From positions 1-43,196 of the forward strand of contig NJEG01000007.1 of NCBI GenBank assembly GCA_002254565.1: a stretch of 43,196 nt of DNA, written 5' to 3'. The notes under the pieces were generated by a model. It was given only the letters and a program-made list of their open reading frames with translations, did no database searches and was not told the DNA's origin. Position numbers and translations under genes: made by a program. This DNA comes from Candidatus Altarchaeales archaeon ex4484_2. GTDB lineage: Archaea; Altiarchaeota; Altiarchaeia; IMC4; QMZM01. Positions 352 to 19,676 of this stretch are shown piece by piece (within the stretch, counting starts at the first letter, position 1; each line of letters starts with the position of its first letter).

Positions 352-1596
352 TTATTCTCCAAAAACAGGAACGTTATCCATAAGATACTGTATCCCAGGA
401 TTACCTATACTTAAATCGTTACCGTTATCAACAACTTTGACGAATGTTCGACTTCCCTGAGGGTATTCATTATTTCCGTTATGCCATGACCAAATATTCA
501 GTCCTTCTGATGAAGGACTTGCTTCTTCCTGCTGGTAAATTGATCTTATTTCTCTAAAGAAGCCGCCGTCAAAACTTGTCGTAACGTATTCTAATCCGAA
601 AGTGCCAGTGTTTTTATAAGGAAGCCCTGGTGTGTCGGGATCATATCTAACCATACTCAACATCCACACCTCTTTTCCGTATTCCACAGCTAAATCCCTT
701 ACAACCTTATTTACCAATCGGTGATGTATATGCCCATATTCACCCCAATTATTATGTGTTATGACTTTTTTAATATTTTCGTCTAGGAAATACGGCCTTA
801 ATTTTGTTTTGATGTTATCATATGTAATCTTTGTTTTTCTAAGCTCCGTATTCAACCAAAAGTTTTTATACTCCTCAATTGATACCTGCCCCCATACAGG
901 CACCCAGTTATTCTTATAATAATCCGGGTGCTGGTTAACAACATTCATGTGTGAGGGTGTTGTGGGGAGGGCTGCCAGTATGAATTTATCGCTTTCCTTC
1001 CAAAAAGGCAGCATCCATAACAGATCATCGTCTTGATGCGCGAAAATTATTATGGTTTCTCCCACCGGCTCAACGCATACCCCGTTTTGGCAAATTTGTT
1101 CTTCTGGACAATTCTGGGGGTCTCCTAACTCCAAACACTTGTCTTCATCATAATTGCCACAGGTTTCAATCTGGTTGCTACCTACACAACGAGTTTGTCC
1201 GCTAGAACATTCATCAGTGCACTCGTCTCCATCACCGCCGCTGACTTCAATACACTCGCTTGTCATTGTATCAACCATACAGCCGCCGGCAATATTTACT
1301 CCACATGGATTCATCGTACAACTCACTCCACCGTAATCCCCACAACCAGAGGGAGGACTACTACTACAACTCACGCAGTTATTGTGTTTATTCACGTAAC
1401 AGATGCCTGGAACACTGCAGATATTATAGATGCAATCCTGATACCCGAAGGACATGGAATAATCGCTGCACTCCGTGATCAGAGAGCAATTAATACATGT
1501 TGGTGTTGTTGTCGGCCCCCCAGGAGAACGGAAAGGGAAATACAGTATATTAACGATATTAACCACCAAAGCCATCAGGAGCAGGACAATAATCAC
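352..1596 (-). CDS. Membrane-anchored Cys-rich protein with C-terminal PIG-L/LmbE-type deacetylase domain
   Basis: Motifs IIIFAHQDDDLL (AHPDDE-like) and GEYGHIHHRLV match the PIG-L/LmbE metal-binding signatures. N-terminal TM and Cys-rich linker. The ORF track starts at 1695, but a GTG at 1596 overlaps the upstream stop (GTGA), so I prefer that start. Confidence 0.75.
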   Translation of the reverse strand: MIIVLLLMALVVNIVNILYFPFRSPGGPTTTPTCINCSLITECSDYSMSFGYQDCIYNICSVPGICYVNKHNNCVSCSSSPPSGCGDYGGVSCTMNPCGVNIAGGCMVDTMTSECIEVSGGDGDECTDECSSGQTRCVGSNQIETCGNYDEDKCLELGDPQNCPEEQICQNGVCVEPVGETIIIFAHQDDDLLWMLPFWKESDKFILAALPTTPSHMNVVNQHPDYYKNNWVPVWGQVSIEEYKNFWLNTELRKTKITYDNIKTKLRPYFLDENIKKVITHNNWGEYGHIHHRLVNKVVRDLAVEYGKEVWMLSMVRYDPDTPGLPYKNTGTFGLEYVTTSFDGGFFREIRSIYQQEEASPSSEGLNIWSWHNGNNEYPQGSRTFVKVVDNGNDLSIGNPGIQYLMDNVPVFGE

Positions 1597-3062
1597 GTAC
1601 TTGATAGACCTCTTCGCCTCAAAACCGCCGCCAGAATAATCAGGATAGTAGAAAAGAGATCCAGTAAACCGCTGACATTCTGATAGCCTCCGCATCCGCT
1701 GACACAGACCGCATTACATTGTTCCCTAGCGCCGTCATCCTCGATTTCAGCACACCAGCCAGAGCAACAGGATTCACAATCCTCCCTGCAGTTCGCATAC
1801 CCCCCGCAGAGCTCGCCCCAGATTTCAAGACAAGCATCGCAGCATTCCTTCTCAGGGTCAAAATCCCCAGAAAGCCACTTACTCTTCGCAGTTGCCTGCG
1901 CAGTAATCTCCCGACCATGGCAGATTCCAGTGCACGAGCACTTATATAGGAGGGTTACATTCAGCGGGGATGTTGTCGTAGTCACGAATTCCTCCACAAC
2001 AACAGTCACAGTATCCGTGTCTTTTTTTTCTACATCAGGGCCTGAGCCGGTGAAAGTCAATGTCACAGTAAAGGTTCCCTCAGCGGTGTATTTGTGGCTG
2101 GTGCTTTCCCCTGAACCAAAGCTGCCGTCCTTGAAATCCCACTTGAAGCCGCCTGTTCCAACAGACTTGCTGGCATCGAAGTAGGCTGTGCCCCCAACAC
2201 CTATAGTAATGGTTTTTTTGTTTACTGTTGTTGAGGTCTCTCCTACGTAGGCTACTGCCTTGAAGTCAACGACCTCAACAGTCACAGTACTCGTGTCTTT
2301 TTTACCTGCATCATCTCCTTCCCCGGTGAAAGTTAAGGTCACAGTAAAGGTTCCCTCAGCGGAGAAGGTATGTGTTGCAGCGGGTGTTGTAGCGTCTACC
2401 GAACCGTCGCCGTCGAAATCCCACCCGAAGCTGCCCTCACCACAAGAGTCGCTGGCATCGAAGTACACCACATCGCCTATGTCAACGGTAACGCTTTTAT
2501 AGTTAACATCTGATGCCGTCTTACCAACCTTGGCCACGGCATTAAACTCCGGCTCAATGGGGCCAACATTTGTAGTATCACAGCCACATCCCCATTTATC
2601 CCCAATGCTGACATGTATATGGTTCCCTTCGTCTAGAAAATACCCCCCTCCACAGTAAGCGAGAGCATCCCGTATTTCAACATCATACATTTCTTTGTTA
2701 AAATCAACTGCATAGGATTGTCCTACACAATTATTGCCGCCGTAGTGGCATGATCCTTCACCGTGGGCACAGGGTGGCCGGCTCCATGAACCGATAACAC
2801 ACCTATCCATCCCCGCTGAATCAGATATCGAGCTTATAGATTTCGCACTCTCAGGGAGGTAGCCCTCCATGCAGATCAGAAGATCCCTCAGTTTATCGGA
2901 CCTGTCACCGCATTGTTCGACTGGGTTTTTTATATCGCTGGTGAGGGTGTACCCATCGCAGACATAACCACCTACTGGGATGGAGAAAACAAAAAGCGAA
3001 ATAATAATTAAACAGCTTATTCCCTTCAGGCCACGCCCAGCTCCCTTAGTTTCTGAATCCAT
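1593..3062 (-). CDS. Secreted/membrane-anchored protein: M15-like (VanY-type) peptidase-like domain, two PKD domains, Cys-rich region, C-terminal TM
   Basis: Signal peptide; SCHYGG..CVGQSYAVDF...NHIHVSIG resembles the M15 SxHxxGxAxD...HxH zinc motif. Two PKD repeats (FGWDFDGDGSVDATTPAATHTFSAEGTFTVTLTF; FKWDFKDGSF...HKYTAEGTFTVTLTF). Terminal hydrophobic helix. Confidence 0.65.
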   Translation of the reverse strand: MDSETKGAGRGLKGISCLIIISLFVFSIPVGGYVCDGYTLTSDIKNPVEQCGDRSDKLRDLLICMEGYLPESAKSISSISDSAGMDRCVIGSWSRPPCAHGEGSCHYGGNNCVGQSYAVDFNKEMYDVEIRDALAYCGGGYFLDEGNHIHVSIGDKWGCGCDTTNVGPIEPEFNAVAKVGKTASDVNYKSVTVDIGDVVYFDASDSCGEGSFGWDFDGDGSVDATTPAATHTFSAEGTFTVTLTFTGEGDDAGKKDTSTVTVEVVDFKAVAYVGETSTTVNKKTITIGVGGTAYFDASKSVGTGGFKWDFKDGSFGSGESTSHKYTAEGTFTVTLTFTGSGPDVEKKDTDTVTVVVEEFVTTTTSPLNVTLLYKCSCTGICHGREITAQATAKSKWLSGDFDPEKECCDACLEIWGELCGGYANCREDCESCCSGWCAEIEDDGAREQCNAVCVSGCGGYQNVSGLLDLFSTILIILAAVLRRRGLSST

Positions 3063-3550
3063 AGTTGAGTATCACCTGGGACTATGAGGACGTCTTTCTC
3101 TTCATTGTTTTCTATGTAGTTAACACGGAGGTATTCCCTGAAAAGCTTGCTCTCTGTTTTCACTTTCTGCACCGAATTGAGTGGTATATCCAGGACCACA
3201 TCAAGCTCCTTGCCGATAATCCTCTTGTTGGTTAAGTACAGGCTCATGTACTTATGGGAGCGTCTCCCCAGCAGGCGACCCCTCTTGGATGGAAACAGGA
3301 CATAACCCTGGTCTATGCTCTCCAGGATTATTGACTCATCCTCATCTGTTCTGGGGGGAATAACCTCCTTCTCAAAAGACATGAAGATGAGATAGCTGCC
3401 GAACACAGCCAACAGCAGGGATAGAAAACCCACTATGAACGGGAAACCAGTCAACAGGTTGTATACCAGAGCCAGAATCAATGCTATAACAAAACCCGCT
3501 ATTACGCCCTTATATCCCAGAGCCCTTAGATCAGATTTATCCAATCTCAT
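3026..3550 (-). CDS. Two-TM membrane protein with bacterial-PH-like domain
   Basis: Two N-terminal TM helices, then ...YMSLYLTNKRIIGKELDVVLDIPLNSVQKVK, typical of bPH/GRAM-like domains. Confidence 0.6.
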   Translation of the reverse strand: MRLDKSDLRALGYKGVIAGFVIALILALVYNLLTGFPFIVGFLSLLLAVFGSYLIFMSFEKEVIPPRTDEDESIILESIDQGYVLFPSKRGRLLGRRSHKYMSLYLTNKRIIGKELDVVLDIPLNSVQKVKTESKLFREYLRVNYIENNEEKDVLIVPGDTQLWIQKLRELGVA

Positions 3551-3593
3551 AATACCACCCTTAATTATTTAGGTTGAGGAGAAATAAAGGATT

Positions 3594-5171
3594 TCACCAC
3601 ACAGGACCCTTTGGGGGACCAACCGGTTTAGGTGGTGTAATCTTCTCTTTCTTGTATTCCTCGAACTCAGCCTCCTCTGCCATGTCAGCAACGCCTGAAA
3701 GCCATGGAACCTCAAGGGCTGAGAAAGCCACTATCATCATAGCCAGCCAGTCCATTAAACCCATAGCAAACAAAGGCCCTATAATAATCAGGAGATAGCA
3801 CGCCAGACCCATACCCACCCTGAATGCCTGCTCCCCAACCAGTTCCGTTGGCATGTGCACAACAGCTAAGGTGATGCCCACAATAATCAACGCCTCAATG
3901 AATTGGGTGGCAATCCACCAACCCGTCTGGTAGAGCATTTCATTACCCAGCCTCCTGGTTAAATGCAGGGAGTTCAGGAATATGGTGAACGGGAATAGTA
4001 TCGCCCACAATATGACCATAAAGTACCTTAACACCAGTATGGTTGCGGCAAAAAGATAGAAGATTATCTGGAAAAAGGCTATATCCACCAAAGTCATCGT
4101 GTAGGCGGATAGTATGTGGGTGAGGTCTAAGAGCAGCTGCATTATGGGTATGGTCAGGATGATAAGTCCAATGGAGAGAATCATCCTCAAAAGTGTTGAT
4201 TTAGCCCGCGCTCTTCCCAGAGGTGAGGCTGACATGAACAATAGATAAAAGACTGTTACAGCAATGCCGAGTATGTAGAATGGTTCGAGGAGGTGTATGA
4301 AGAAATCCAGTGTGTGGACAACAACCGGCTGGGTAAGGTTAGGTTTAAGCAGGATGAAGTAGTCTATGTCATTGCATATGTCTTCCATCTTATCCAGAAC
4401 ACCTATTTTTATGCCAAGGTATCCTACAAGCACCCGCCCTGAAATCTTCTTGAACTCACCCCTGAATGCTTTAACAACGGGGTATTTGTTACCCCACTTA
4501 TCTAGTTTTCCTAGAAAACTATGTAGTAGACCGGGGTGATGCATTCCTGCTGTACTCGCAACGATACTCTGCGCCCAGAACCCTACCTCATCGGTCGTGT
4601 GGCTTGAGGTCATTACACCCTCAATCCATGTATCGGCTGTGGTGGAGCAGTTCTCGATATCCAAGCCCTCCCTCTCACCCTTAACAGAGGCGTAGATGTG
4701 GTGGCCGTTGTTCATGGTGAAATCAAAGTGTGTGGCAGCTATATCAGAGAGGTTGTCGTTGTCTATGACTCCTGGGGTGTCGGTGTCGAATCTACAACCC
4801 CTCCCCTCCACCAGCGGGCTTTCCGTAAGCTCCGTATACCCCACATCCAGACCCTTCTGGACTACAATCATAGCCCTCTCCCCGGTCACAGAGCATACCT
4901 CCTCTACGGTGGCTTTAAGGGCGTCACATGTGCCCCTCTGCATCAGCTCAGCGTTTTCAATGAATCGCACACAGGGACTGTCTATCCTGCATTCTCTTAT
5001 GTATTTCCCGTATTCAGGTGTCCCTGGTAGAAGCCTGCAGGTGCTTTGCTCCACCCCTGCAAGCCCTTCATTTCCAGGAGACGATTCCCCCAACTCTAAG
5101 GCGCTCACGCTAGCTGATAACAATAAGGCGAACAACGCCAGCAACACCATCCCTCTTTTTCCGTAATCCAT
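3594..5171 (-). CDS. Polytopic VirB6/TrbL-like membrane protein (paralog 5) with Cys-containing ectodomain
   Basis: Signal peptide MDYGKRGMVLLALFALLLSASVSA; shared block FFIHLLEPFYILGIAVTVFYLLFMSASPLGRARAKSTLLRM...LRYFMVILWAILFPFTIFLNSLHLTRRLGNEML. The ATG at 5171 follows the upstream stop at 5176; the track start (5246) overlaps the upstream gene. Confidence 0.65.
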   Translation of the reverse strand: MDYGKRGMVLLALFALLLSASVSALELGESSPGNEGLAGVEQSTCRLLPGTPEYGKYIRECRIDSPCVRFIENAELMQRGTCDALKATVEEVCSVTGERAMIVVQKGLDVGYTELTESPLVEGRGCRFDTDTPGVIDNDNLSDIAATHFDFTMNNGHHIYASVKGEREGLDIENCSTTADTWIEGVMTSSHTTDEVGFWAQSIVASTAGMHHPGLLHSFLGKLDKWGNKYPVVKAFRGEFKKISGRVLVGYLGIKIGVLDKMEDICNDIDYFILLKPNLTQPVVVHTLDFFIHLLEPFYILGIAVTVFYLLFMSASPLGRARAKSTLLRMILSIGLIILTIPIMQLLLDLTHILSAYTMTLVDIAFFQIIFYLFAATILVLRYFMVILWAILFPFTIFLNSLHLTRRLGNEMLYQTGWWIATQFIEALIIVGITLAVVHMPTELVGEQAFRVGMGLACYLLIIIGPLFAMGLMDWLAMMIVAFSALEVPWLSGVADMAEEAEFEEYKKEKITPPKPVGPPKGPVW

Positions 5172-5175
5172 TCTC

Positions 5176-6252
5176 TCAGTAATCCTCTGGTGGCTTGATG
5201 ACAACCTCCTCCTCCTCAAAGGGCTCCCTCTCAAGTGTTGTTTCACTCACTAGCACAGAACCGCTGCTTAGTGGAGCAGCCTGAACTATCTCGAACATGA
5301 AAATCGACAGCCCCATCCAGTTCATAACACCCATTATCATGAAGGGAACAGCGAACATAAAGATAAGTGATGTAGCGTATATGAACTCCAGCGGGAGATT
5401 AGGTGATATAGCAGGGAGAGTCGCTACTGCTATGGATATAATGAGTAATCCCACAGCCCAGCCCAGCTGCAAAAAAATCCAGATGATAGTCTGCTCGAAC
5501 ATCATCTTCCCCACGTTTCTGGTTAAACCCCATGAATAAAAGAATATGGTTACCGGCAGGAGAACAGCCATCACCCCCGCCATGACGTATCGTACGAACA
5601 GTATCAGATACAGGGCCATCAATAGCACAGTATCCAGGAGGAACAGCTCTATACCACCATACCTGTGTATGAGGGTTATTTTCACGAAGGTATCGAACAG
5701 ATCCTGAGCAGCCGCCTGGAGCGAGCCCAAGGCTATTGTTATGTCAGCGAGGTTCATAATCTGGGATGTCAGGCTCCCGGAAACATAATAAAGCAAATTG
5801 ACGAGTAAAGGGGATACTGAGATGAGAACCAACCCGATAATCAGCTTACCAAACCATTTCTTAGCCTTCGCCCTGTTCAGCGGAGACTGTGAGACAAAGA
5901 GGATATAGAACCCCGTTAACATTATGGCTGCTATATAAAAGGGCTGCATCAGATTAATGAAGAAACCCATGAAATGCTTTATACCCCACATAGGCGGGTT
6001 GGCTTTTATCAGGGAGGGCATATTATCGAATACCGATAAATAAAAGTAATGAACGAGCCTGGACGAGTATATGATAACCCCCTTCCTGGCAAGTTTCGCT
6101 GATTCACTAGTGAATGTCTGGAAAATTCCCGACACCCATGGATGCTGACCAACGCTTCCCTTCGTTTTAGCAGCGGAGACTGAGGAGACAGAGGCTAACA
6201 CTAGCAGGAGCAATACAATAACCACCACCAAATATCTTGTCCTTGTTTTCAT
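5176..6252 (-). CDS. Polytopic VirB6/TrbL-like membrane protein (paralog 4)
   Basis: Shared block FFINLMQPFYIAAIMLTGFYILFVSQSPLNRAKAKKWFGKLIIGLVLISVSPLL...LLPVTIFFYSWGLTRNVGKMMFEQTIIWIFLQ. Confidence 0.65.
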   Translation of the reverse strand: MKTRTRYLVVVIVLLLLVLASVSSVSAAKTKGSVGQHPWVSGIFQTFTSESAKLARKGVIIYSSRLVHYFYLSVFDNMPSLIKANPPMWGIKHFMGFFINLMQPFYIAAIMLTGFYILFVSQSPLNRAKAKKWFGKLIIGLVLISVSPLLVNLLYYVSGSLTSQIMNLADITIALGSLQAAAQDLFDTFVKITLIHRYGGIELFLLDTVLLMALYLILFVRYVMAGVMAVLLPVTIFFYSWGLTRNVGKMMFEQTIIWIFLQLGWAVGLLIISIAVATLPAISPNLPLEFIYATSLIFMFAVPFMIMGVMNWMGLSIFMFEIVQAAPLSSGSVLVSETTLEREPFEEEEVVIKPPEDY

Positions 6253-7445
6253 GGTAGAAAGTCACGGAGGTGATGTGACCATATCAGGGGGAATATTATC
6301 AGCATTGCATATATTGTAGCCCCAAGCACGAAATCCACGATATTGACTGTTGCAGGCATAGCCTCATAGAAGTGATGGAGCATGATTTCTGTCCCGGCAA
6401 CTCCCACCACAGACCCTATTGCTCCACCGAGGAGTAAACCCCACCAATTAAGAACCTTTCCCGTCTGCAGCCCAATCTCCGCCGTAGATGGACCAATAGC
6501 CAACACACCCATGAGGTCATACATGCCCCTGAGGTTTGTGAACGATATCTCGGCGTTCAAGACAACATGCTCTTCTATTGTGGTGCCGATACCGACGAAT
6601 ACAACAATGATTAAGGCAATGAATACCTGGAGGAATATCCACACAATCAACTGCTCCAGCAGTTTCTTGCCTATGCCCTTAAACCAGGGGAGGGTGTAGA
6701 ACAAAATCCCCAAAGGGAATAATACCATTAAGAGCGTGATAAGTATGTGCCTCAAACCCAGTATTATGTAGGGTATGAAGGACATAGCAAAAAGCAGGGT
6801 GAGATAAGGGAGGCCAAGATCAGTATACGGTACTGCTGTCAATGCATAAACCCAGAACAGGTTTTGGACTGCACCGCCCAGAGCAGCCTTTACCTCCTCC
6901 CCGCTTACCAGACTGAAAACAGACTCAGTCATCTCCTCAGACAGCCCCAGTAGCAGGTTTATTATGGGTATGGATAGGGAGATAACAACCATCGAAACCA
7001 GCAACCTGAGCAGGATATCCTTTGCCTTAGACCTTGATGAGGGCGATACGGGCATGAAGAGCAGATAAAACCCCACAGTTAATATAAGTAGCACATAAAC
7101 TGGTTGCAGTATCCTTATGAAAAATGCTATGAGTTCAAATATTAAGGCGTCGTGTGGTGAGGGGTTGGATATTATCGCCATATGATAGTTGTTAGGAAAT
7201 GACATAGCATACTTGGGCATGAATCCCCCGTGGATTATTTTAACAACAAGAATCATTCTAAGAAAGTATCCCATACCCTCCCCTATGAAACTGCCGGTGC
7301 CTATTAACCCCTGACCTGTCCAAAAGCCTTTTACACTAGACCATACTCCTGATAAAAAGCCCTGTGAGAAAACGTTCGTGGAGAAGACTATGATTAACAA
7401 CAGAACCATTACTACCTTGTAATCCCTTCCCCGTTCAATTTTCAT
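6249..7445 (-). CDS. Polytopic VirB6/TrbL-like membrane protein (paralog 3)
   Basis: Shared block FFIRILQPVYVLLILTVGFYLLFMPVSPSSRSKAKDILLRLLVSMVVISLS...LFPLGILFYTLPWFKGIGKKLLEQLIVWIFLQ; C-terminus LRDFLP. 4-nt overlap with the next gene. Confidence 0.65.
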   Translation of the reverse strand: MKIERGRDYKVVMVLLLIIVFSTNVFSQGFLSGVWSSVKGFWTGQGLIGTGSFIGEGMGYFLRMILVVKIIHGGFMPKYAMSFPNNYHMAIISNPSPHDALIFELIAFFIRILQPVYVLLILTVGFYLLFMPVSPSSRSKAKDILLRLLVSMVVISLSIPIINLLLGLSEEMTESVFSLVSGEEVKAALGGAVQNLFWVYALTAVPYTDLGLPYLTLLFAMSFIPYIILGLRHILITLLMVLFPLGILFYTLPWFKGIGKKLLEQLIVWIFLQVFIALIIVVFVGIGTTIEEHVVLNAEISFTNLRGMYDLMGVLAIGPSTAEIGLQTGKVLNWWGLLLGGAIGSVVGVAGTEIMLHHFYEAMPATVNIVDFVLGATIYAMLIIFPLIWSHHLRDFLP

Positions 7446-7449
7446 TTTT

Positions 7450-8369
7450 TTATGGTAAAAAGTTTCTGAACCATGCGAGCATCAACGCTGGAGTAAGTAC
7501 GAGACTGAACGCACCAACCAACAAAATCAAATCAAATCCGAAATCTAGTATAAATCCAAAATTGCTATTGCAGCAACAGCAACTATCACAGCATTAAATA
7601 TCTGCAGGGAAGACCAGAGTATTGTCTGCTCCAGCATGTTCCTGCCTATGTTCTTGGTGAAACCGAAGGAGTACAGGAATATGGATAATGGGAGGAGTAT
7701 AATCCACAAGAGAACAGCCAGATACCTTAATATAAGCATCAGATACGTCCCCCAGACAAGAAAGAAAAGAGGTAGGAAGGCGTAATACCCTAGCTCTACA
7801 TTAATAAGACAAGACCATATATGCAGCTTTTTTAAACCCTCTATCACCTTATTCAGGGTGTAGGTGTAGTATGCGATATCAGCCTGTCCCAGAACAGATG
7901 AGGTGATGTTCTCTGTTATATAGAGGGTTATGGTCATTATTTGAGGAGCCAGTGATATCAAAACCAGTGAAATAAACAGCTTAACCAGCATGGATTTCGC
8001 TTTATTCCTCCCTGAGGGAGATGATGAAACAAGTATGAGATAAAACCCGGTTATCGATATGGCAAGCACATAGAATGGTTGTAGAAGCGAAACAAAAAAT
8101 CTTATTAAATCCAGCACTATAGGATCCTGGGGTGAGGGATTCATCAAAATAAAATCCCCCAGGTTAGCTGATAGCGCATCAAGCCCCCTGGTAGCATATC
8201 CGGAAGCAGCCAGGTAGTAAACCAATCTCTTTACCACATACACTGTAGTCTTAGCTACGCCTTTGGCAGCTGACTTCCCAGGATAATCTCCTGCACAAAC
8301 AAAAACAACGATAAATGAGAGTATCAATAACGCTGCTATGACCAGGACGTATCTTCTCTCTTTTTTCAT
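7450..8369 (-). CDS. Polytopic VirB6/TrbL-like membrane protein (paralog 2), frame-broken near the 3' end
   Basis: ORF 7545-8369 has the shared block FFVSLLQPFYVLAISITGFYLILVSSSPSGRNKAKSMLVKL...LLPLSIFLYSFGFTKNIGRNMLEQTILW. Past the stop, another frame reads ...ILDFGFDLILLVGAFSLVLTPALMLAWFRNFLP* ending at 7450, matching the paralog C-termini. Confidence 0.6.
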
Positions 8370-8371
8370 GG

Positions 8372-9574: not shown

Positions 9575-12500
9575 TTATCTCCTACCTCTCAGATCCTCCA
9601 ACCAGCTTTCAAGCTCCATCCTGCCCACTCCAAGGAATTTATATGAGAACACGGCCACGACCAGAATCGCCAACAACAAAAGAATCTCCGGGGAAAGCAG
9701 CGGCGTGTAAATCTCCACAACATTAAACCTCACAACCTTATCCAGGGAGCGTCCTGTTGGGTCAACATCACCATGGTGTTTCATCTCCAGAGAGAATGTT
9801 TCATGGGCATTTAATGTAAACTCAGCATATCCATCAGCATCCGTAACCACAAAATATTCACCGTCTTCCTCGCTTAAACCATTAGGACTTAGAGTGGATA
9901 TGTCAATATCCTTGCTCCACACATCAACCCTCTTACCTGACTCACCCCTGTTTTTATCAATATTATACAGCCATAACTTAACAGTCACCTCTGTGCCAGG
10001 AGACAACACCACGCCCTCGGGCTCAACCTTGTAGGTTAACTCAACAGCGTCCCGGATTTTGAACTCATCAGCATCGCTGAGATTAATCACCCTGCTCTCG
10101 TAGAGGGTATCTACAACCAGTTTACCGTCCTCAAACTCATCCCTGGGTATTATGTCATAATCCTCCTCCCCGGAATAGAGGTGCCTGTACGGCTCATAGT
10201 CTGTTCTAAAGTAGAGCGTGTAGTAATGACCCCCAGGAAACACAGCATCTGAAACATTATGCTTGAAGTCGACAACAACTAATTTATTAAACCCTCCCAT
10301 GGATTTCGCAGCCTCCAGACCATACCATGTCATATCCTCAATGTTCTTATTGCCGAAGATGACAAAATCATAAGCCTTGCCCACATTCACGTTATCCACA
10401 ATAAGATTACTCTCCAAAGCCTCTATCTCAATACTCCTCATTTGTGGGGAGACATCATAACAGATTTTATTCCATCCAACATCACAATCCTCTGTATGGT
10501 ATTCATATTCATCCCCCTCATCTATGGTAATCCTTATTTTACCAGGGTGGTTGGAGTCCACCCCAAACTCCAGACACAGCTGGTTATCCGGATCAGATGT
10601 AGCACCCAGCGGTATATACTGTATCACAGAAGACCCTTCAGAGAGGAATAAAGCGTAACCGTTCCTCCCCATCCACTTCACGATTGGACTGCCTTTAGTG
10701 GCCTCCCACGGACCCAGCCCGGTATCGAATCCCATCTCGAAGTCTCCGTTGACTATGACGCTACCCTCATCCTCATGGAATGTTCTGTTGGATGTGCACG
10801 GGTTATCGTATCTCTTATCCGGGGCACAGACACAGTCATCTCTCTCAATTAAACGGTCACCGTAGCAGGCCATATATAATGCATCGAATCTGAATTCATC
10901 AAAACAATAGACCCTGTTGTGCTCGAACTCGCACTCAAGGAGACCTATCTCGTTAAGGTATCTGGTGCACAGGTCGTCTATGGCCTGCTTGTTGTCCTGG
11001 ATTGAACCGTCAGTACAAATCCTTTCCACAACAGGATTATCCGAGTAATGGTTACACAGGAGTTCCTCAATGTCATCCCTGTATCTTAGGGGACTCGTGT
11101 TCATACACAGAGGCCGCATTATGTCTTCCGGGTCGCATTCACATACGGGGGGAGGGTCACAAAAAGTCTGGCACTGCTCCGGGAACTCGTATTTCTCGAA
11201 CTCATAACCGTAGCGGCTGCCTAAACCGTAACCACTATTACCTGCAGAGCTTGATTTCTTTTTTATTGTTGAATGCTGGATGGGGGTTATAATCTTATGA
11301 GCGTCTGCATCAGAGTCTCCTACAAGAAGGGTCATCCCCCTGAACAAATCCGGCTGTATGGTGAAGTTGATGAACCCGTAGGTGACTATAAAATCCCCCT
11401 CCTTGTATCTTGTAGCATCCAAGACCAGATGATGGTATATGGGCGAATCCTTCCAGCCGCTTGCGCAGCCGTTGTATATCCAGGGCACCTTCTCCCAGTT
11501 ATACACATGATATTCACTCTCTATTGTGGTTGTATTCTGCTCATGATACCAGGACAGGATCTCCTCCCTCCACTGGTGGAAACAATAATCACAGTAATGT
11601 GGGGGACAGCTTCGGCAACATGGACCATCACATGAACAAGTGCATATTAGCATGATTTTCTCGCTCACTCCACCGCAGACATCCTCCTTATATCCAGTGT
11701 TGCTGTCTGCTAAAATAAACTTGTATGTGGGAACAATACCGCTAGGACAGGGACAGGTGCATAAACATTCCTCACAGTTGCAGTTTAATCTGTCGCAGGC
11801 TGTATAAAACCGGTCCTCTCTGATACCTGTTAGATAATCCTGTTTAGCTATGAACTTTAGCTTCATGTATGAGCTATTCACCACATTGGACCTGAAAACA
11901 TCAGAGTCTATGGTAAACCCAGACCACCTTCCCAGCTTGGACTTATAGTATCTCACCGCCGTAATATCCGAGCAACCATCCGGGTCCTTACATTCATTAA
12001 TTGCTGTATCAGGATCATCAAAATAGGGCTCTGAAGCTATCCAGTAGGCGCAGGTCACCTGGAAGGGCACATTACCGGTATCAATTATCTTGAGTTCACC
12101 GATTACCCCATCACCCTTAGACATCCAGATGTTTTCGCTTATGTTATAGATCTCCATCCGCTGCGGCTCCCCAAAAGGCAACATGCTACCAGAAGATAAC
12201 CCAACCTTGAACTTTGTGGAAGCTTTACCTCCACCCTCCAGTATATACTTGGTGAGACACAACGGCCCAGGAGCCTCCTCCTTCTGCTCTATGATACTGT
12301 ACCCGTATGCCTGCGAACCTCCCAGACAGCTTACACAACCATCCTTCTCGCACCAAGATAACAGCTTCCACTTACATTTTATGTTATCCGAGCCCCAGAT
12401 ACGCTCATACCATGGAACCTCCACCTTCTCAAAGCCTGCTTGCCCATATCCCGAAGCATTGCACTCCTCCGGGGGGCAATCCCTCATAAACTGGTATTGC

Positions 12501-14248
12501 GTGATAACCTCACAGGGTATATTACCGCTAGGCGTCCCCCAGCAGTCGCCATGTGGGGGGATGAGTGCGGGAGTGCATTCAGTCGCCTCTTCCTCATCAG
12601 ACTTGCATTCATCGTCCACGCCACGGTAAAGCTTGCAGGGGCCTGTCTGCAGGGTACCTGGAGGATCATCCTCTGAGTCGAAACCAGAGCATAGATCAAA
12701 GTGCGGGTTCTCATTCGGACAATGATCATATTGTGTGGCATCATCGTCCATGGGATCAAAGGGATCGCATTCCTCTAATAGTTCACAGGGAGTCCCATGC
12801 CGGCAGCTCCAGTCACAGGCATCCTTCCGGTCCTGCCCGGAACCCACGTACCTGTCTGTATCAACCCCCTCCGCATAACCCCACACGCCGCATTTAATTG
12901 GACCAGTCACCGATATCAGAGGAGAGAGCATGAAAAACCTGACCCAGAGACCATGCCATGCCTTCGTTATATCCTCTAGGGGTTTAGGTCCCATAATGGT
13001 TCCAGGTATCACAGTCCCATCAGGCCCCTTAAACGTAATACTATCCTTATCAGGCATCTCGTTGATGTATGCATGGACATCATTCCAGTTCTTCTGGTCC
13101 CGGATGTATAACTCATCAACTGAAAGCAGGTTAGCATTCTCTGTGAAAGAATACATCATATACGGCAGCTCATAGCAGTAGCTGTCATCCCTTAAGCCTG
13201 TTTTATAGCAATAGAGTCTCTCGGATTCATCCATACCCCCAAGAGACCGGATGTAGTGTTTAGCCCATGCCTCAAAAAATGTGGCATAAACCTCATCTGC
13301 TCCAAGGAATGTGTGTATGTTATAGAAGGTCGCCGGTTCATCAGGCAGAGAATCATCGCCTGATAAATCCGCTAAAGAATCCGCCCCGTCCATGCTGTGG
13401 TAGTGCTCAACAAGCGCCTTATACAATAAATCATTAACCAAAGTCCACGTATGGTTTGAGGCACCCCCATACGCCTCCAATATAAAACAACGTTTCTCAG
13501 CGTCCATAAGCCAGTACTTCACCTGATTCTCTGCGGTGAAATCCTCATAAGGCTGGAATTCACAGACCCCAGACTCCTCATCCCACACGCATTTCTCGGT
13601 TTTAGAGCAAGCGTATTCTGTAGCGTACTCACTGCACCTGTAGGATGGCTTAGAGGCTGCGACCAGATACTTGGAGGGGTTTATTACAAGCTCCATCTCC
13701 TGCGTTTCACTTTCACCCCGCCCCAGATCACCTGTCCGGGTGCATCTGGCGATGGGGGTGGAGGAGTAGCCGAATGCATAGGAATCCTCTCGCTCGTATT
13801 GTCTCAGAATCCTGTCCTGGCTGGATATGAAGGCATAGTCTTTTTCATCAACACTGCTGCCTTCATCCAATATCTCACACTTATCTAAATCCAACAACAG
13901 GGTCTTGAAGCAATAATATCTGTTGCTGGCTTCTGTTTTCACATACACCTCAGGTGTTATGGTAATATTCGCCTCCGGGGTTCCGTCGTTTGTTACATTA
14001 ATGCTCCCGTTGTGATACAGGTATGCGTCCGCTATACCAGCGAATCCCAGATTCTCATAATCCGGTGGTTCAGCATCTGACAGAGGCAGGTAGGGCACCT
14101 GATGACAGCTTGTAGGCCCCCAATCACAGTCCTCAGCCTCAGTATACGGCCCATAGCTTATGCCGCAGAGATCCCCCTCTTGGGCAGTTGCAACGCTGAG
14201 GGAAAACAAGAACAATAAGACTACAGCATACAGGGAAGGAGATTTCAT
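9575..14248 (-). CDS. Giant (1557 aa) Cys-rich secreted protein with C-terminal TM; putative carbohydrate-binding and Ig-like modules
   Basis: N-terminal signal peptide; dense Cys clusters (CNCEECLCTCPCPSG; CTCSCDGPCCRSCPPHYCDYC); VNGDFEMGFDTGLGPWEATKG resembles CBM4/9-type jelly-roll openings; C-terminal PLLSPEILLLLAILVVAVFSYKFL. Confidence 0.7.
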   Translation of the reverse strand: MKSPSLYAVVLLFLFSLSVATAQEGDLCGISYGPYTEAEDCDWGPTSCHQVPYLPLSDAEPPDYENLGFAGIADAYLYHNGSINVTNDGTPEANITITPEVYVKTEASNRYYCFKTLLLDLDKCEILDEGSSVDEKDYAFISSQDRILRQYEREDSYAFGYSSTPIARCTRTGDLGRGESETQEMELVINPSKYLVAASKPSYRCSEYATEYACSKTEKCVWDEESGVCEFQPYEDFTAENQVKYWLMDAEKRCFILEAYGGASNHTWTLVNDLLYKALVEHYHSMDGADSLADLSGDDSLPDEPATFYNIHTFLGADEVYATFFEAWAKHYIRSLGGMDESERLYCYKTGLRDDSYCYELPYMMYSFTENANLLSVDELYIRDQKNWNDVHAYINEMPDKDSITFKGPDGTVIPGTIMGPKPLEDITKAWHGLWVRFFMLSPLISVTGPIKCGVWGYAEGVDTDRYVGSGQDRKDACDWSCRHGTPCELLEECDPFDPMDDDATQYDHCPNENPHFDLCSGFDSEDDPPGTLQTGPCKLYRGVDDECKSDEEEATECTPALIPPHGDCWGTPSGNIPCEVITQYQFMRDCPPEECNASGYGQAGFEKVEVPWYERIWGSDNIKCKWKLLSWCEKDGCVSCLGGSQAYGYSIIEQKEEAPGPLCLTKYILEGGGKASTKFKVGLSSGSMLPFGEPQRMEIYNISENIWMSKGDGVIGELKIIDTGNVPFQVTCAYWIASEPYFDDPDTAINECKDPDGCSDITAVRYYKSKLGRWSGFTIDSDVFRSNVVNSSYMKLKFIAKQDYLTGIREDRFYTACDRLNCNCEECLCTCPCPSGIVPTYKFILADSNTGYKEDVCGGVSEKIMLICTCSCDGPCCRSCPPHYCDYCFHQWREEILSWYHEQNTTTIESEYHVYNWEKVPWIYNGCASGWKDSPIYHHLVLDATRYKEGDFIVTYGFINFTIQPDLFRGMTLLVGDSDADAHKIITPIQHSTIKKKSSSAGNSGYGLGSRYGYEFEKYEFPEQCQTFCDPPPVCECDPEDIMRPLCMNTSPLRYRDDIEELLCNHYSDNPVVERICTDGSIQDNKQAIDDLCTRYLNEIGLLECEFEHNRVYCFDEFRFDALYMACYGDRLIERDDCVCAPDKRYDNPCTSNRTFHEDEGSVIVNGDFEMGFDTGLGPWEATKGSPIVKWMGRNGYALFLSEGSSVIQYIPLGATSDPDNQLCLEFGVDSNHPGKIRITIDEGDEYEYHTEDCDVGWNKICYDVSPQMRSIEIEALESNLIVDNVNVGKAYDFVIFGNKNIEDMTWYGLEAAKSMGGFNKLVVVDFKHNVSDAVFPGGHYYTLYFRTDYEPYRHLYSGEEDYDIIPRDEFEDGKLVVDTLYESRVINLSDADEFKIRDAVELTYKVEPEGVVLSPGTEVTVKLWLYNIDKNRGESGKRVDVWSKDIDISTLSPNGLSEEDGEYFVVTDADGYAEFTLNAHETFSLEMKHHGDVDPTGRSLDKVVRFNVVEIYTPLLSPEILLLLAILVVAVFSYKFLGVGRMELESWLEDLRGRR

Positions 14249-14368
14249 TTTCGTTTGTTATATTATTACCTAAACAGTAATATATCCCCCATTTTGGTTA
14301 ATTTGGTGTCGGCTCTGTTATGTGTCAGAGTACTTCCCCACCCCCCCTGTTCCAGTTCCCAAGCGGGA

Positions 14369-14585
14369 GTGGCTCATCCATCACTTAAACATATTGGCTC
14401 TTCTCCCAGTTTAGGGAGGAATCGTGTTATCTATAGGTGATGGATCAAAAATACCAGCTAAAAGTAAGGGAAAACAACTAGATTAGCGGGGTGACTGCTT
14501 ATCTTTTTAGGATGAGCCACATTATTTCTATTCAGATTATCGCCAGCCACAAGATTGGAGTATTTTTCAGCAGGGAGTACTCCAA
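14369..14585. other. Candidate structured element with nested/alternative inverted repeats between divergent operons
   Basis: GTGGCTCATCC (14369-14379) / GGATGAGCCAC (14510-14520); ATCCATCAC (14376-14384) / GTGATGGAT (14437-14445); TTCTCCC (14401-14407) / GGGAGGA (14414-14420); TTGGAGTA (14555-14562) / TACTCCAA (14578-14585). Confidence 0.4.
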
Positions 14586-14798
14586 GTCCTGAAACCCGTA
14601 AGCTCTACGCTTTATGACATTTAAGTTTAAGGGGCTAGGAAATAGTTAGGCACTACACTTCCCTCATCAACCGATGCGGTACACCCTAAATCTTCAACAT
14701 TTCATGGGACAGAACCAAAAAGACATAAAGATATTAATGTTGGGGGATTAATATTTATCGTTGAACTATGGTATTCAACACAGCATAGCATGTAGAGA

Positions 14799-16775
14799 AT
14801 GAAAAGGACTGCCTTACTGTTTATGGTAGGAGTTATAGGGCTTCTGGTGATAGCAAACACCCCATTAACAAGTGCTGATTCAGTACCCTGTTATGAGGGT
14901 CAAACCTGTTATTCGACCAAAGCCGAAGCTGTTGCTGCGGTTCCAGAGCATGTTGAACCAAAAGATTGTTTTGTTTGGGATGATGGGCCTGCAGGTCATC
15001 CCTGGAGACCAATTCCTGGAACCGGATGCGCCCACTGGGTTGCTCACCAACTAAACATTAAACAGGGTACAGCAACATGTTATGCGGGATATCCCCTTAG
15101 AGTCGATGATGTTGTCGAGGGAAGGGAAAAGGTTGATCTAGAAGATTGTAAAATAGGGGATATTTGGACAACAAATCCTCTTTTTTGGTTATGGAATAAA
15201 CATTGTGGAATTGTCCGCCAAGTTGAGACAGATAGGGTATATGTTGAGCATGATAGTTCAGGACAAGGAGGTGTGGTTACGGATTGGTTTAGTTCAGGAA
15301 AATGCTGGACTTTGGAGGAAATAACCCTAAAAGCAGACGCAAGAGTCGGTAAAACAGCAGACGAGAAACAAAAGGAAATCACCGTCAAAGTCGGCGACAC
15401 CATCTACTTCGACGGAGAAACACATTCCACCGGAGCAATAACAAAATATGAATGGGACTTCAACGGAGACGGAACCTACGACTGGAGCTCAACAACAACC
15501 GGAAAAACCACCCAGCAATACACAGAAACAGGAACCTACACAGCCAAACTAAGAATCACCAACGACAAAGGCGAAACAGACACCGACACAGCCATCATCC
15601 ACGTAGTAGAAGAAATCGAACCCTCTTTTCTCTCAGATATCTGCCCCGCCCCGCCGAACGACTACTTGATGAGGATGGTTTGTCTGGTTGTGCCCATCCT
15701 CTGTGTGATAATGAACATCCTGGTACCAATAATGTTTGTCCTGATTGCCTTGGGGGGTCTGATGCAGCTGAGCACCGACGAGGGGATAAAAAACCAGGGC
15801 AAGCAGGTGATACTGAACACCATCCTTGGAGTGATTATTATCTCAGCATTCATAGGTTTATCGGATTTATTGATAGAGGAAATCAACATCATGGAGGTGT
15901 GTTTACTCGGGGAGATTCCGCCACCTCCTTTAACAGCGTCTATTGATGCTAACCCGACCTCCGGACCCCCGCCACTTGTTGTTTCCTTAACTGGGAGCGC
16001 ATCCGGGGGAACCGAGCCCTACACCTACAGCTGGGACTGTGGTGGAGGGACTTTAGAGGTCACAGGCCCAAACACCGCAACATGCACATACACAAGCGAA
16101 GGAACATACACGATAACCCTGACCGTAACAGACGCGGAAGGTGAAACAGCCACAGCCACCCAGACAATAAATGTTGGGGTAGAAGGTGCTTGCGAGGACC
16201 CGTCATGCGACCAGATTTACGGTTACATAGACGGCGCCATCACAGGCTTAGTGGACGACAGTTTGGTGAGGGCTGTGATAAAGACGGAAAGTGATTATCA
16301 TCAGTGTTGCTTTGACCCCTTCATTGGGGTTACATGTGAGGATGGTGAGGTCCTTAACTCATCTGCGGGGGCTTTGGGTCTGATGCAGGTGCGGCTGATA
16401 GCAGCCTCTGATGTGGGGGCGGGTCTTGACGACCTTTTAGATGCACAGAGGAATGTTGAAACAGGGGTGGAATACCTGAACAAGCAGTTAACCGACTTTG
16501 GAACTAGAGAACTGGCTCTAGCCGCCTACAACTGCGGGCCAGGAAATATAAGGGCTCTTCAAGCTGCGTATCCCCCCGGTACGTGGGCTGCCATCGAAGG
16601 GCATCTAGGCGATGAATGTGTTGGTGATGGATCAGTAACACAGTCTTATGTTAATGGCATAATGGGGATTATAGGGACTGATGAGGCAAATTGCAGTAAA
16701 ACAGGAGATGGAGACGTCACAGGAGACTTTGAGATGGAATTTGTATCCTTGAATGAGGGATCGGGTGCCAGCTGA
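14799..16775 (+). CDS. Multidomain protein: Cys/His hydrolase-like (CHAP/NlpC-like) - PKD - VirB2/TrbC-like two-TM - PKD - SLT lytic transglycosylase
   Basis: Signal peptide; GCAHWVAHQL...NKHCGIVRQV (Cys/His pattern); two PKD domains; NILVPIMFVLIALGGLMQLSTDEGIKNQGKQVILNTILGVIIISAFIGLSDLL (TrbC/VirB2-like); VIKTESDY...SSAGALGLMQV...LALAAYNCGPGNI (SLT motifs). Confidence 0.75.
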   Translation: MKRTALLFMVGVIGLLVIANTPLTSADSVPCYEGQTCYSTKAEAVAAVPEHVEPKDCFVWDDGPAGHPWRPIPGTGCAHWVAHQLNIKQGTATCYAGYPLRVDDVVEGREKVDLEDCKIGDIWTTNPLFWLWNKHCGIVRQVETDRVYVEHDSSGQGGVVTDWFSSGKCWTLEEITLKADARVGKTADEKQKEITVKVGDTIYFDGETHSTGAITKYEWDFNGDGTYDWSSTTTGKTTQQYTETGTYTAKLRITNDKGETDTDTAIIHVVEEIEPSFLSDICPAPPNDYLMRMVCLVVPILCVIMNILVPIMFVLIALGGLMQLSTDEGIKNQGKQVILNTILGVIIISAFIGLSDLLIEEINIMEVCLLGEIPPPPLTASIDANPTSGPPPLVVSLTGSASGGTEPYTYSWDCGGGTLEVTGPNTATCTYTSEGTYTITLTVTDAEGETATATQTINVGVEGACEDPSCDQIYGYIDGAITGLVDDSLVRAVIKTESDYHQCCFDPFIGVTCEDGEVLNSSAGALGLMQVRLIAASDVGAGLDDLLDAQRNVETGVEYLNKQLTDFGTRELALAAYNCGPGNIRALQAAYPPGTWAAIEGHLGDECVGDGSVTQSYVNGIMGIIGTDEANCSKTGDGDVTGDFEMEFVSLNEGSGAS

Positions 16776-17343
16776 CAGTGTGATGTGGGATGTGAGTCAT
16801 GTGAGGTTGGAGACCCATGTGAGGGGGAAACCTGCGATGCCACCAGAAACTACTGCTGCGAGATGATAATGAGTAGTTCATTGAAAGCTGGTCCGTGGTG
16901 AAGGGCTTTGATTTCGGTAAATGCAGCGGATTCACCCCTGGTGGAGATGGATACTGTAGCATCTGGACGGCGGTTGCACTGATGTTGGTGTGGGAGGCTC
17001 ATGCGGTGCCGGAACCTGCACTGCCGACACCGGAACCTACTGCTGTGACTCAGAAGGCACACGCACCTGCCAAGAGAGGAGATATGACTGCAGTTGCTGC
17101 GGGGGATTGGATGCGGGTGAGTCATGTATAAGGAAGCTTAGCGGCACATTAACTAATAATGAGGGGTCAGCGAAGACTGTTTATTTACATTTCTGGGTGG
17201 ATGAGAACTGTGGCGGAACACCGGTTGACAGCAGGTTTGTTGAAGTAATCGATAAATGCCATGAATACATTGATGAACTCGGATATGAGATAACAATAGG
17301 TCCGGGGGAGACTAGAGCAGTCAGCTGCACTGGAGGATACTAA
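16776..17343 (+). pseudogene. Cys-rich segment split over several frames; possible C-terminal extension of the SLT protein or degraded ORF
   Basis: In-frame continuation after the TGA reads QCDVGCESCEVGDPCEGETCDATRNYCCE...; another frame has FGKCSGFTPGGDGYC; the 117-aa ORF has VGGSCGAGTCTADTGTYCCDSEGTRTC...GESC, a similar Cys-rich pattern. Confidence 0.4.
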
Positions 17344-17395
17344 CCGCCTGAGTTCACCGACCTTGAACACTGTTGGAAGGTGGAAAAAGATTAGA

Positions 17396-18540
17396 ATGAA
17401 GGAAATAATAAAACAGGGGATGATGGACGGCAAAAAAATATTGTTTATTGGGTTGCTTACCTCAATGATTCTTCTCTTTAGTTTAGGGTCTTCGTATGCA
17501 GTGAAGTTGGATGAGGGAGTCTATGGTGGATCCGGCAGTGGTGATTGGAGCTGCACTCCGGGGGGTCCTATAAAGGACTCGGTATGTGGGGTACACCTTA
17601 ACAGTTTACCTAGCTTCCCTAAACCCCTCTTTGATAAGTTCCAATATACCCATGGCGCAATTGAGATATGTGACCCTGAACCGCCTATCCAGTCCAAGAT
17701 TCATGAATGGATTCTATCTGACCCTGCATTGAAGGCAGAGGTGCTTGCTGGAAGCTATGATAATTCAGTGCGTAAAATATTTGATGAGGCGTTTGAACTA
17801 TATTTCACAAACGGTGTTTCAGACGTATCTTCATGTGATCCAATACCCCCTCATATGTTAATAGACGGAACCAACCCGCATGGTGTGTGTATTCACTGGG
17901 CATCCGCAGTATTTTCGCTTATCAGAACGCTTGGCGTTCCTGCAGATAGAGCGTATATAGTCTCTTTTGGTACATCTTCTAACAGTGGTCACAGCATAGT
18001 AATGTATAAATCTGACGCAGGTGGGTGGTATGCGATTGATGTTACAGCCTGTCAAGCTATGGTTGAGGTCGGGGCCGGAGGCAGCATATGGTTTAATGAA
18101 TGTGGTAGTCTTTGCACCTGTAGTGTTGATAGGGGGATATAACCAATGATTATGGAAGTGGATATTGGTTGGATGGGAGCAGATTCGATGGAGCCTGCAG
18201 CTCGGTTGATTTATTCTACAAAATACCTTTTATTTATTATGTGACACAGTTAGGGGAGAAAATCATAGAATGCTACAACAGCGGCGGATCAAGCCACGTA
18301 TGTGAGTTGATGGATGTCAGCGGTTGGGGTGAGAATGCCGCAGTCTATCTAACTCATGTTCAAATATATCGTAATGATCAAGGAAGAGGTGACGTAAATA
18401 TTGGCTGGCATATAGAGCAGGGAGGTGGCCCAATATACATAGATTATCTCTTGGGGGAACGTGTATGCATCAAATTCAATGACGGTTTGTTAAGTGATAA
18501 AGTGGATATCATGAGGGAAAGCGACCCTGGTTGTGCATGA
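17396..18540 (+). CDS. Secreted transglutaminase-like protein, frame-broken at a G5 run
   Basis: ORF 17363-18142 (likely start MKEIIKQGMMDGKK) has HGVCIHWASAVFSLIRTLGVPADRAYIV...SGHSIVMYKSDAGGWYAIDVT (Cys-His-Asp pattern). A shift at gatagggggatata joins ...DITNDYGSGYWLDGSRFDGACSS to ORF 18169-18540. Confidence 0.55.
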
Positions 18541-18549
18541 AACAATACA

Positions 18550-19584
18550 ATGAAAAAGATAACGTATCTGGTGGCGGTTTTGTTTGTGCTGGCTACCGTG
18601 AACGCAGAGGTTGATGTGGTAAAGAACCTGTCTGAGAGTGATATAGTTGCTGATGATGTGGTTACCGTAAATGTAGTAATAAAAAACGATTGCGGAGAAG
18701 GGATTGAGGGTGTTTTGATTGAAGGCTATCCCCCGTACGCAAGTCCTGAGGGTGATTTCATGTCTGGTGGTGTTGTGGGGGTGTTGAAGAAGAACATCTC
18801 CCTCCAACCCTTCTCTGAGGTCAAGTACACCTATAACCTGACATTTAACGATATCCCAATACCTGTTAGGGAGAAAGAGCATGTGTTTCCTTCAACGGTT
18901 CTTGTATTAGTTAACGGCTCAAGATACTCATCCAACGAAGTTAAGATATTTATTTCTGAGCCGATAGTTGGCCCATGCAACTATGATTTCGTATGTGATC
19001 CAGGAGAGAACCGTGGGAACTGTTTCCAGGACTGTCCCCCAGGAGGAAAAGATGATTACTGTGACGGCCTGGATGATCTATTATGCGACCCTGACTGCGA
19101 GATGGGGGAGGATGTGGACTGTAAGGCTAAATGCGGTGACGGCATCTGCAGTGAGGTGGAAAGCTACCTGTCCTGTAAACTTGATTGCCCGGCAGGGGGG
19201 CGGGACGGATTCTGCGCCTACCTTGATGACGGCGTCTGCGACCCGGACTGTTCCAAAGGAGAGGACCCGGACTGTTCAGAAGTACCGGCCACAACAACCA
19301 CAGTGACCTCAACCACATCAACAACAGAACCCACGGCTGGAGTAGATAATACTTTATCATATATTATTGTGCTGGTAGTTGTTTCCTTGGCTGGATTCCT
19401 CATCTACAGGCGATACAGGAAAGGTAAGGAAATAGAGGATGCCCGGGAGAAAAGAGAGAAACTGTTTGATTGGATAGAAAAAGAGTTGAGGAACGGAGAA
19501 GACCCTGAGAAACTTAAGACCATCGTCAGATCACAGGGATTCGAGGAGGAGCTGGTGGACTACGTCGAGAAAAAACTGATGTAG
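18550..19584 (+). CDS. Secreted Cys-rich repeat protein with Thr-rich linker and C-terminal TM plus cytoplasmic tail
   Basis: Signal peptide; repeats CGDGICSEVESYLSCKLDCPAGGRDGFC and related; TTTTVTSTTSTTEPT linker; TM YIIVLVVVSLAGFLIYRRY. Confidence 0.7.
   Translation: MKKITYLVAVLFVLATVNAEVDVVKNLSESDIVADDVVTVNVVIKNDCGEGIEGVLIEGYPPYASPEGDFMSGGVVGVLKKNISLQPFSEVKYTYNLTFNDIPIPVREKEHVFPSTVLVLVNGSRYSSNEVKIFISEPIVGPCNYDFVCDPGENRGNCFQDCPPGGKDDYCDGLDDLLCDPDCEMGEDVDCKAKCGDGICSEVESYLSCKLDCPAGGRDGFCAYLDDGVCDPDCSKGEDPDCSEVPATTTTVTSTTSTTEPTAGVDNTLSYIIVLVVVSLAGFLIYRRYRKGKEIEDAREKREKLFDWIEKELRNGEDPEKLKTIVRSQGFEEELVDYVEKKLM
19527..19570 (+). repeat. Copy 1 of an about 40-bp imperfect direct repeat (3' end of the 344-aa gene)
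   Basis: cagatcacagggattcgaggaggagctggtggactacgtcgaga. Confidence 0.6.
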
Positions 19585-19625: not shown

Positions 19626-19664
19626 GTTTCCAAACGGAAACGAAAACTTTAAATATTGGTTTCC
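19626..19664. promoter_or_regulatory. Candidate operator/promoter: inverted GTTTCC repeats around a TATA-like box
   Basis: GTTTCC-AAAC-GGAAAC (19626-19641), CTTTAAATA (about 19647-19655), GGTTTCC (19658-19664), ATG at 19677. Confidence 0.45.
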
Positions 19665-19676
19665 TATATAACTACT

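Follow-up and report, generated by a model that had tools for sequence, protein, structure and literature searches.

What does an archaeon do with a gene cluster that combines membrane proteins resembling those of a bacterial type IV secretion system (T4SS) with domains that commonly act on bacterial murein? The question is raised by positions 352 to 19,584 of contig NJEG01000007.1 of Candidatus Altarchaeales archaeon ex4484_2 (assembly GCA_002254565.1); the whole stretch of 43,196 nucleotides is hereafter the window. A sequence-only reading had proposed a T4SS-like envelope apparatus that may attack bacterial neighbors, act on a murein-like wall of the archaeon itself, or transfer DNA or protein. 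It pointed to a VirB4-type ATPase and VirB10-like proteins elsewhere in the genome, to synteny in related archaea, and to the catalytic residues of an SLT transglycosylase as evidence that would bear on this idea. We find it probable that these genes specify a membrane-embedded base and surface enzymes of a reduced, chromosomal T4SS-like machine that would open the murein of bacterial neighbors, and that the VirB6 component of this machine is a hetero-pentamer.

The window is contig C18 of an archaeal genome bin (G000; 1.4 Mb, 83% complete), and the host organism is a member of the Altiarchaeales. Named organisms with relatives of its VirB6 genes include Candidatus Altiarchaeales ex4484_96, Altiarchaeota S014_51, Altiarchaeales IMC4 and archaeon GMC4. 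The right half of the window carries ordinary archaeal genes, including those for replication factor C, a V-ATPase subunit I homolog and aminoacyl-tRNA synthetases. Candidatus Altiarchaeum hamiconexum, of the same order, has two membranes and a periplasm of ~32 nm (PMC4460559). Our comparison set comprises 29 genomes of the phylum (genomes, contigs and loci are designated by G, C and L numbers). The VirB6 cluster recurs in 23 of them, one being a single-contig genome (G015), and is thus not a product of chance; six genomes lack VirB6. Outside the phylum, the VirB6 profile matches only four of 368 archaea, with 1-3 copies apiece. Our literature search found no published description of a T4SS in Altiarchaeota.

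Five VirB6-like proteins in ordered sets

The five polytopic VirB6/TrbL-like paralogs that the sequence-only reading described lie in tandem on the minus strand (3594-9574). They share 24-35% mutual identity and 25 invariant alignment columns. Clade support below is from the Shimodaira-Hasegawa-like approximate likelihood ratio test (SH-aLRT).

3594..5246, minus strand: VirB6-5, with a long Cys-containing N-terminal extension; position-5 clade, SH-aLRT 92
5176..6252, minus strand: VirB6-4, with a T4SS_pilin match (PF18895, 1.1e-5); position-4 clade, SH-aLRT 100
6249..7445, minus strand: VirB6-3; position-3 clade, SH-aLRT 96
7545..8369, minus strand: VirB6-2, with a T4SS_pilin match (PF18895, 0.0019); position-2 clade, SH-aLRT 99
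8372..9574, minus strand: VirB6-1, with an AlphaFold2 (AF2) model and fold matches in the PDB; position-1 clade, SH-aLRT 99

The VirB6-like assignment is supported by one method, comparison of predicted structure. When the AF2 model of VirB6-1 (pLDDT 76.7, pTM 0.68) is searched with Foldseek against 350,542 PDB chains, the top four chains are all R388 TrwI/VirB6 (probability 0.99-1.00), with target-normalised TM-scores of 0.41-0.47 for R388 VirB6 chains; the best non-VirB6 chains have probabilities below 0.4. The VirB6 sequence profile has no significant match among PDB chains, and the link to VirB6 is by fold alone. Weak matches to the Pfam T4SS_pilin family (1.1e-5, 0.0019 and 0.0049) are present in three of the five paralogs.

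The number five is conserved, and each place in the set has its own lineage. Tandem arrays of five VirB6 genes occur 12 times across ten genomes, G008 contributing three. In the single-contig genome, one array of five is accompanied by a second set, split as 4 in tandem and 1 at a distance of 0.5 Mb. The members of this second set pair one-to-one with those of the first in the tree, and the solitary gene branches as the sister of position 1 (SH-aLRT 100). The VirB6 genes of G018 are split 2+2+1, G016 has five if two contig-end fragments are one gene, and G004 has three in an array interrupted by the contig end. VirB6 trees group genes by array position, not by genome: support for positions 1-5 is 99, 99, 96, 100 and 92 in type I arrays and 99-100 throughout in type II arrays. 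In both types the position label changes four times on the tree, the minimum possible, compared with no fewer than 12 and 8 changes in 200 within-array shuffles per type. The sequence-only reading overlooked this position-specific set of five.

In R388 five VirB6 subunits form the stalk, and each layer of the F pilus contains five VirB2 subunits (PMC9259494). Because VirB6 of R388 is a homopentamer, and because the genes described here come in sets of five that sort by array position, we propose that VirB6-1 to VirB6-5 likely form an obligate hetero-pentamer. In other genera of the phylum, some VirB6 proteins carry very long extensions and reach a total of up to 2015 residues (L072, L073, L102, L103, L084, L082). 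Pfam recognizes no domain in these extensions beyond the VirB6/pilin region, and the extended proteins recall the extended RvhB6 proteins.

Motor, pilins and surface heads

Our data provide good support for a T4SS-like machine that is larger than the window. Contig C9 of the same genome carries VirB2 (PF18895, 1.1e-14; PF04956, 6.3e-10), PrgI/VirB3 (PF12666, 1.8e-7) and VirB4 as neighboring genes. This VirB4 matches P-loop_TraG (PF19044) at 8.3e-22 and PDB entry 4ag5 at 4e-31; it scores 4.7e-82 against the VirB4 of CD1110-family integrative and conjugative elements (ICEs; NF045971) and 4e-12 against CedB. Twenty of the 23 VirB6-bearing genomes also have a VirB4, the six that lack VirB6 have none, and T4SS_pilin occurs in precisely the 23 with VirB6. 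VirB4 (C9) and VirB6 (C18) are on separate contigs in the window's genome; they lie within ~15 kb of each other in six relatives (G003, G008, G016, G018, G019 and G020). The gene order in G003 is VirB2, Cys-rich giant, five VirB6, PH-like, pilin fusion, PrgI and VirB4, and in G008 the PrgI-VirB4 pair adjoins five VirB6 genes. The T4SS-like nature of the locus is thus supported by the ATPase and the synteny that the sequence-only reading had named as checks. At L002:11043-14357, an SPFH/band-7 protein and an Mrr-endonuclease/PAP2 fusion adjoin PrgI-VirB4, and both are likewise found beside VirB4 in G008.

VirB2-like hairpins also occur as parts of larger proteins. Fusions to SLT are present in the window, on C38 of the same genome, in G001 and in G007; a hairpin is fused to a PIG-L-like domain in G001 and to transglutaminase in G002. 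The hairpin of the window's SLT protein falls below the Pfam cut-off by itself. It matches the genome's own VirB2 at 1e-4 and has conserved counterparts in G001 and G002. In the usual picture of VirB2, both ends of the hairpin lie outside, and the heads fused to such hairpins are therefore probably surface-exposed. The window's genome has another head locus, apart from the first, on C38 (L069:7006-12789, plus strand), in which an SLT-hairpin gene whose product has 52 Cys is followed by a 957-residue Cys-rich protein and a paralog of the stalk protein.

Other hairpins are linked to one another. Contig C8 of the window's genome encodes neighboring single-chain pilins of 10 and 5 T4SS_pilin hairpins (L115:1899-5042 and 5137-6999, minus strand), a pair also found in G002. 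Five-hairpin chains occur in G001, G006 and G012, and a two-hairpin chain in G015. These chains suggest that linked hairpins may form fivefold rings within one polypeptide. On a poorly resolved hairpin tree (71 columns), five-hairpin chains seem to have been amplified independently in two genera.

The remaining genes of the locus flank the VirB6 array.

352..1695, minus strand: C-terminal half of a broken gene, with a PIG-L/GlcNAc-deacetylase-like domain behind a Cys-rich region (PF02585, 9.8e-4, sub-threshold)
1593..3062, minus strand: N-terminal half of the same gene, with an M15-like zinc-site motif, two PKD domains (PKD_4, 1.7e-18) and the first helix of a broken hairpin
3026..3550, minus strand: bacterial-PH-like protein with two transmembrane segments, after VirB6-5 in type I arrays (bPH_3, 0.013)
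9575..14248, minus strand: giant surface protein (1557 residues, 69 Cys) with a C-terminal transmembrane anchor, directly upstream of VirB6-1
14799..16775, plus strand: CHAP-like region, PKD, VirB2-like hairpin, PKD and SLT (SLT PF01464, 1.3e-14; PKD_4, 1.4e-22)
16990..17343, plus strand: small Cys-rich protein, with similarity to a segment of the Cys-rich protein that neighbors the SLT-hairpin gene on C38 (1e-6)
17363..18142, plus strand: secreted transglutaminase-like protein (PF01841, 3e-5), hairpin-fused in G002
18169..18540, plus strand: small conserved domain, fused behind transglutaminase in G002 (1e-26)
18550..19584, plus strand: Cys-rich stalk with a Thr-rich linker and a C-terminal transmembrane anchor; relatives lie beside VirB6 arrays in G006, G007 and G008

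Several parts named in the sequence-only reading are recovered here: the VirB2-like segment fused to SLT, the transglutaminase-like protein, the giant Cys-rich protein and the stalk, for which a C-terminal transmembrane segment is found. The SLT catalytic residues are intact, as the catalytic Glu (ES) and the GLMQ and AAYN motifs are kept in all four hairpin-fused SLT proteins from three genomes. Other labels stand in part. The PIG-L-like domain has the motif AHQDDD...GHIHH, with its profile match below threshold. By eye, the CHAP-like region shows the motif GCAHWV...HCGIV...VEHD; it has no profile match and no homolog among the loci compared. In the M15-like region, H106, D120 and HxH are kept in two to three orthologs, the usual Glu is not conserved in orthologs, and Pfam and PDB searches returned no match. 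The CHAP and M15 labels are therefore putative and motif-based. An AF2 model of the protein at 14799-16775, built from a two-row alignment, reached a pLDDT of 34.8 and was not used.

The two open reading frames at 352-1695 and 1593-3062, previously read as intact genes, are one broken gene, another point missed earlier. In G001 the PKD and PIG-L parts form a single open reading frame joined by a VirB2-like hairpin, with 98% identity over 423 residues; the frame break in the window, either genuine or an assembly error, falls inside this hairpin (1593-1695). Next to the arrays of G001, G002, G003, G007 and G008 lie orthologs of the PH-like protein. Homologs of the giant Cys-rich protein, which has no Pfam domain, stand at the equivalent place in G002, G003, G008, G012 and G015.

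Role and relation to known systems

A machine built from these parts could work as follows. VirB4, with PrgI/VirB3, would provide power from the cytoplasm to a base made of a ring of five VirB6 subunits, each from its own gene. VirB2-type hairpins, including the single chains of 5 or 10, would stack upon this base, and some of them would bear extracellular heads: SLT with the CHAP-like region, PIG-L-like and transglutaminase. Wall-active enzymes would thereby be placed on the outer face of the machine, near the giant, adhesin-like Cys-rich proteins. The likeliest role would be contact with bacterial neighbors and local opening of their murein, after which material may be delivered or taken up. 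The archaeon's own wall is an unlikely substrate, since each genome has 0-1 Mur-ligase-like genes and no murein pathway is evident; this disfavors one of the options raised by the sequence-only reading. Attack on bacterial neighbors is plausible. Bactericidal murein hydrolases have been described in archaea (PMC12352652), and predation on bacteria has been suggested for Woesearchaeota that carry GH23 enzymes (PMC9723730). A more specific version, in which a hetero-pentameric base carries a pilus built partly of covalently linked pentameric rings, and hairpin-tethered enzymes open murein as part of an anti-bacterial or bacterium-feeding device, is a tentative possibility.

Several observations weigh against our interpretation. 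Foldseek E-values for VirB6 are just 0.02-0.1, and the TM-score normalised to the query is 0.30-0.35. G011 has an intact array yet four VirB6 genes, and VirB4 was not detected in G011 or G004, both genomes of their genus. The poly-pilins of G007 (C13, L116:2007-9371) carry 7, 4 and 7 hairpins. VirB10 (PF03743), a partner that the sequence-only reading had listed for a search, was found in none of the 23 genomes, though Altiarchaeum has two membranes. SLT occurs in just six of the 29 genomes, so that wall-cutting by SLT is no universal part of the machine. Given this restriction, the heads are best read as variable, like interchangeable tools upon a fixed base.

DNA transfer was also among the earlier proposals, and its classical form is disfavored. 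A PF03432 relaxase was found in none of the 23 genomes (other relaxase families were not searched), and matches to VirD4 (PF02534) mostly cover a ~40-residue P-loop in ~510-residue proteins, one of which, when scanned with Pfam, is HerA; none is convincing. On these grounds we set classical conjugation aside. Exchange of DNA between kin is a different matter. VirB2, VirB4 and VirB6 homologs could mediate import in the manner of Ced and Ted, which have the same minimal set and no classical transfer genes (PMC9905601); the hydrolase heads would then be incidental or clear matrix. The lack of a relaxase and of a convincing VirD4, and the restriction-endonuclease-like Mrr/PAP2 gene near VirB4, fit this explanation. 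However, the VirB4 is far closer to ICE-type VirB4 than to CedB, the neighborhood of the locus yielded no DNA-uptake partner genes, and pilin-fused wall enzymes, giant Cys-rich surface proteins and five VirB6 are not reported in what is available on Ced and Ted. We consider kin exchange unlikely. Alternatively, each VirB6 paralog could form a separate homopentamer for different pilins or cargo, five being a frozen historical accident. Five ancient, diverged paralogs could well be functionally specialized, G011 persists with four, and Rickettsia has five RvhB6 proteins whose roles are unknown (PMC2653234). Independent machines would not need the fives to survive duplication of whole sets (three in G008, two in G015) or scattering (4+1 in G015, 2+2+1 in G018, and G016), and fivefold symmetry exactly matches R388 VirB6. 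For these reasons we regard separate homopentamers as doubtful.

The locus could also be a platform for assembling appendages, such as hami-like hooks or short pili, and for attachment, with enzymes that remodel the cell's own envelope or biofilm matrix. Altiarchaeum dwells in biofilms and its hami span two membranes (PMC4460559). Single and multi-hairpin pilins are numerous, and adhesin-like giants, VWA proteins and beta-helix proteins lie within or near the arrays. Hami consist of S-layer-like proteins proposed to use Sec, however (PMC4460559), SLT, PIG-L-like and M15-like heads fit murein better, and the cell shows no evident murein of its own. We therefore view an appendage platform as improbable. 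That the locus is mis-binned bacterial or mobile-element DNA is very remote. Most members of the SLT, PrgI and VirB4 families are bacterial, but the window itself carries archaeal replication factor C and the archaeal V-ATPase subunit I homolog, the VirB6 tree follows lineage, and the arrays are found again in 23 related genomes, the single-contig one among them; on this recurrence we reject the explanation.

The murein-opening machine that we favor shares features with several known systems. Like the R388 VirB/Trw system, it has homologs of VirB2, VirB4 and VirB6 and the fold of a VirB6 whose pentamer is the stalk base in R388. It differs in having five different VirB6 genes, PrgI instead of VirB3, an SLT enzyme fused to a pilin hairpin, and neither VirB10, PF03432 relaxase nor convincing VirD4 in our searches. 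The PrgI-VirB4 pair and a best NCBIfam match to CD1110-type ICE VirB4 recall the MPF_FATA class of monoderm bacteria, some of which join SLT and CHAP domains in VirB1 (PMC12102498). Unlike MPF_FATA, the Altiarchaeales system is archaeal, chromosomal and rich in pilin hairpins, and no transfer genes were found. Multi-gene arrays of PF18895 pilins with VirB6, PrgI and VirB4 are described for Patescibacteria, where Ca. S. epibionticum depends on the T4SS to grow as an epibiont; five-VirB6 sets and single-chain poly-pilins are not mentioned in the accessible sections of these reports (PMC12102498, PMC12857230). In the rvh system of Rickettsiales, VirB6 is likewise present as five paralogs, RvhB6a-e, which carry long extensions (PMC2653234). 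This system is, however, bacterial and has VirB8, VirB9, VirB10, VirB11 and VirD4, and the portion of the literature available on it holds no proposal of a hetero-pentamer. Ced and Ted are archaeal and have VirB2, VirB4 and VirB6 homologs as well as homology between VirB6 and pilin. As far as their accessible descriptions go, each has one VirB6 (CedA/TedA) and wall enzymes are not reported; the Altiarchaeales VirB4 also scores better against ICE-type VirB4.

To the archaeal T4SS-like machines Ced and Ted the locus adds another kind, from a group in which the described member is bounded by two membranes, and it gives murein-cutting enzymes of archaea a place on a dedicated surface machine. It turns VirB6 gene count into a testable statement on ring symmetry, for which the five RvhB6 proteins of Rickettsia offer a parallel. 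If the ring is hetero-pentameric, single position-specific subunits could be labeled or mutated, which is impossible in homomeric T4SSs.

Two further features of the window lie beyond these genes. An AAA_14/DUF4143 ATPase immediately follows the stalk gene (19656-20930) and is probably unrelated. A tandem pair of Meth_synt_2-like (MetE-like) genes is located at 26217-28132, outside the system.

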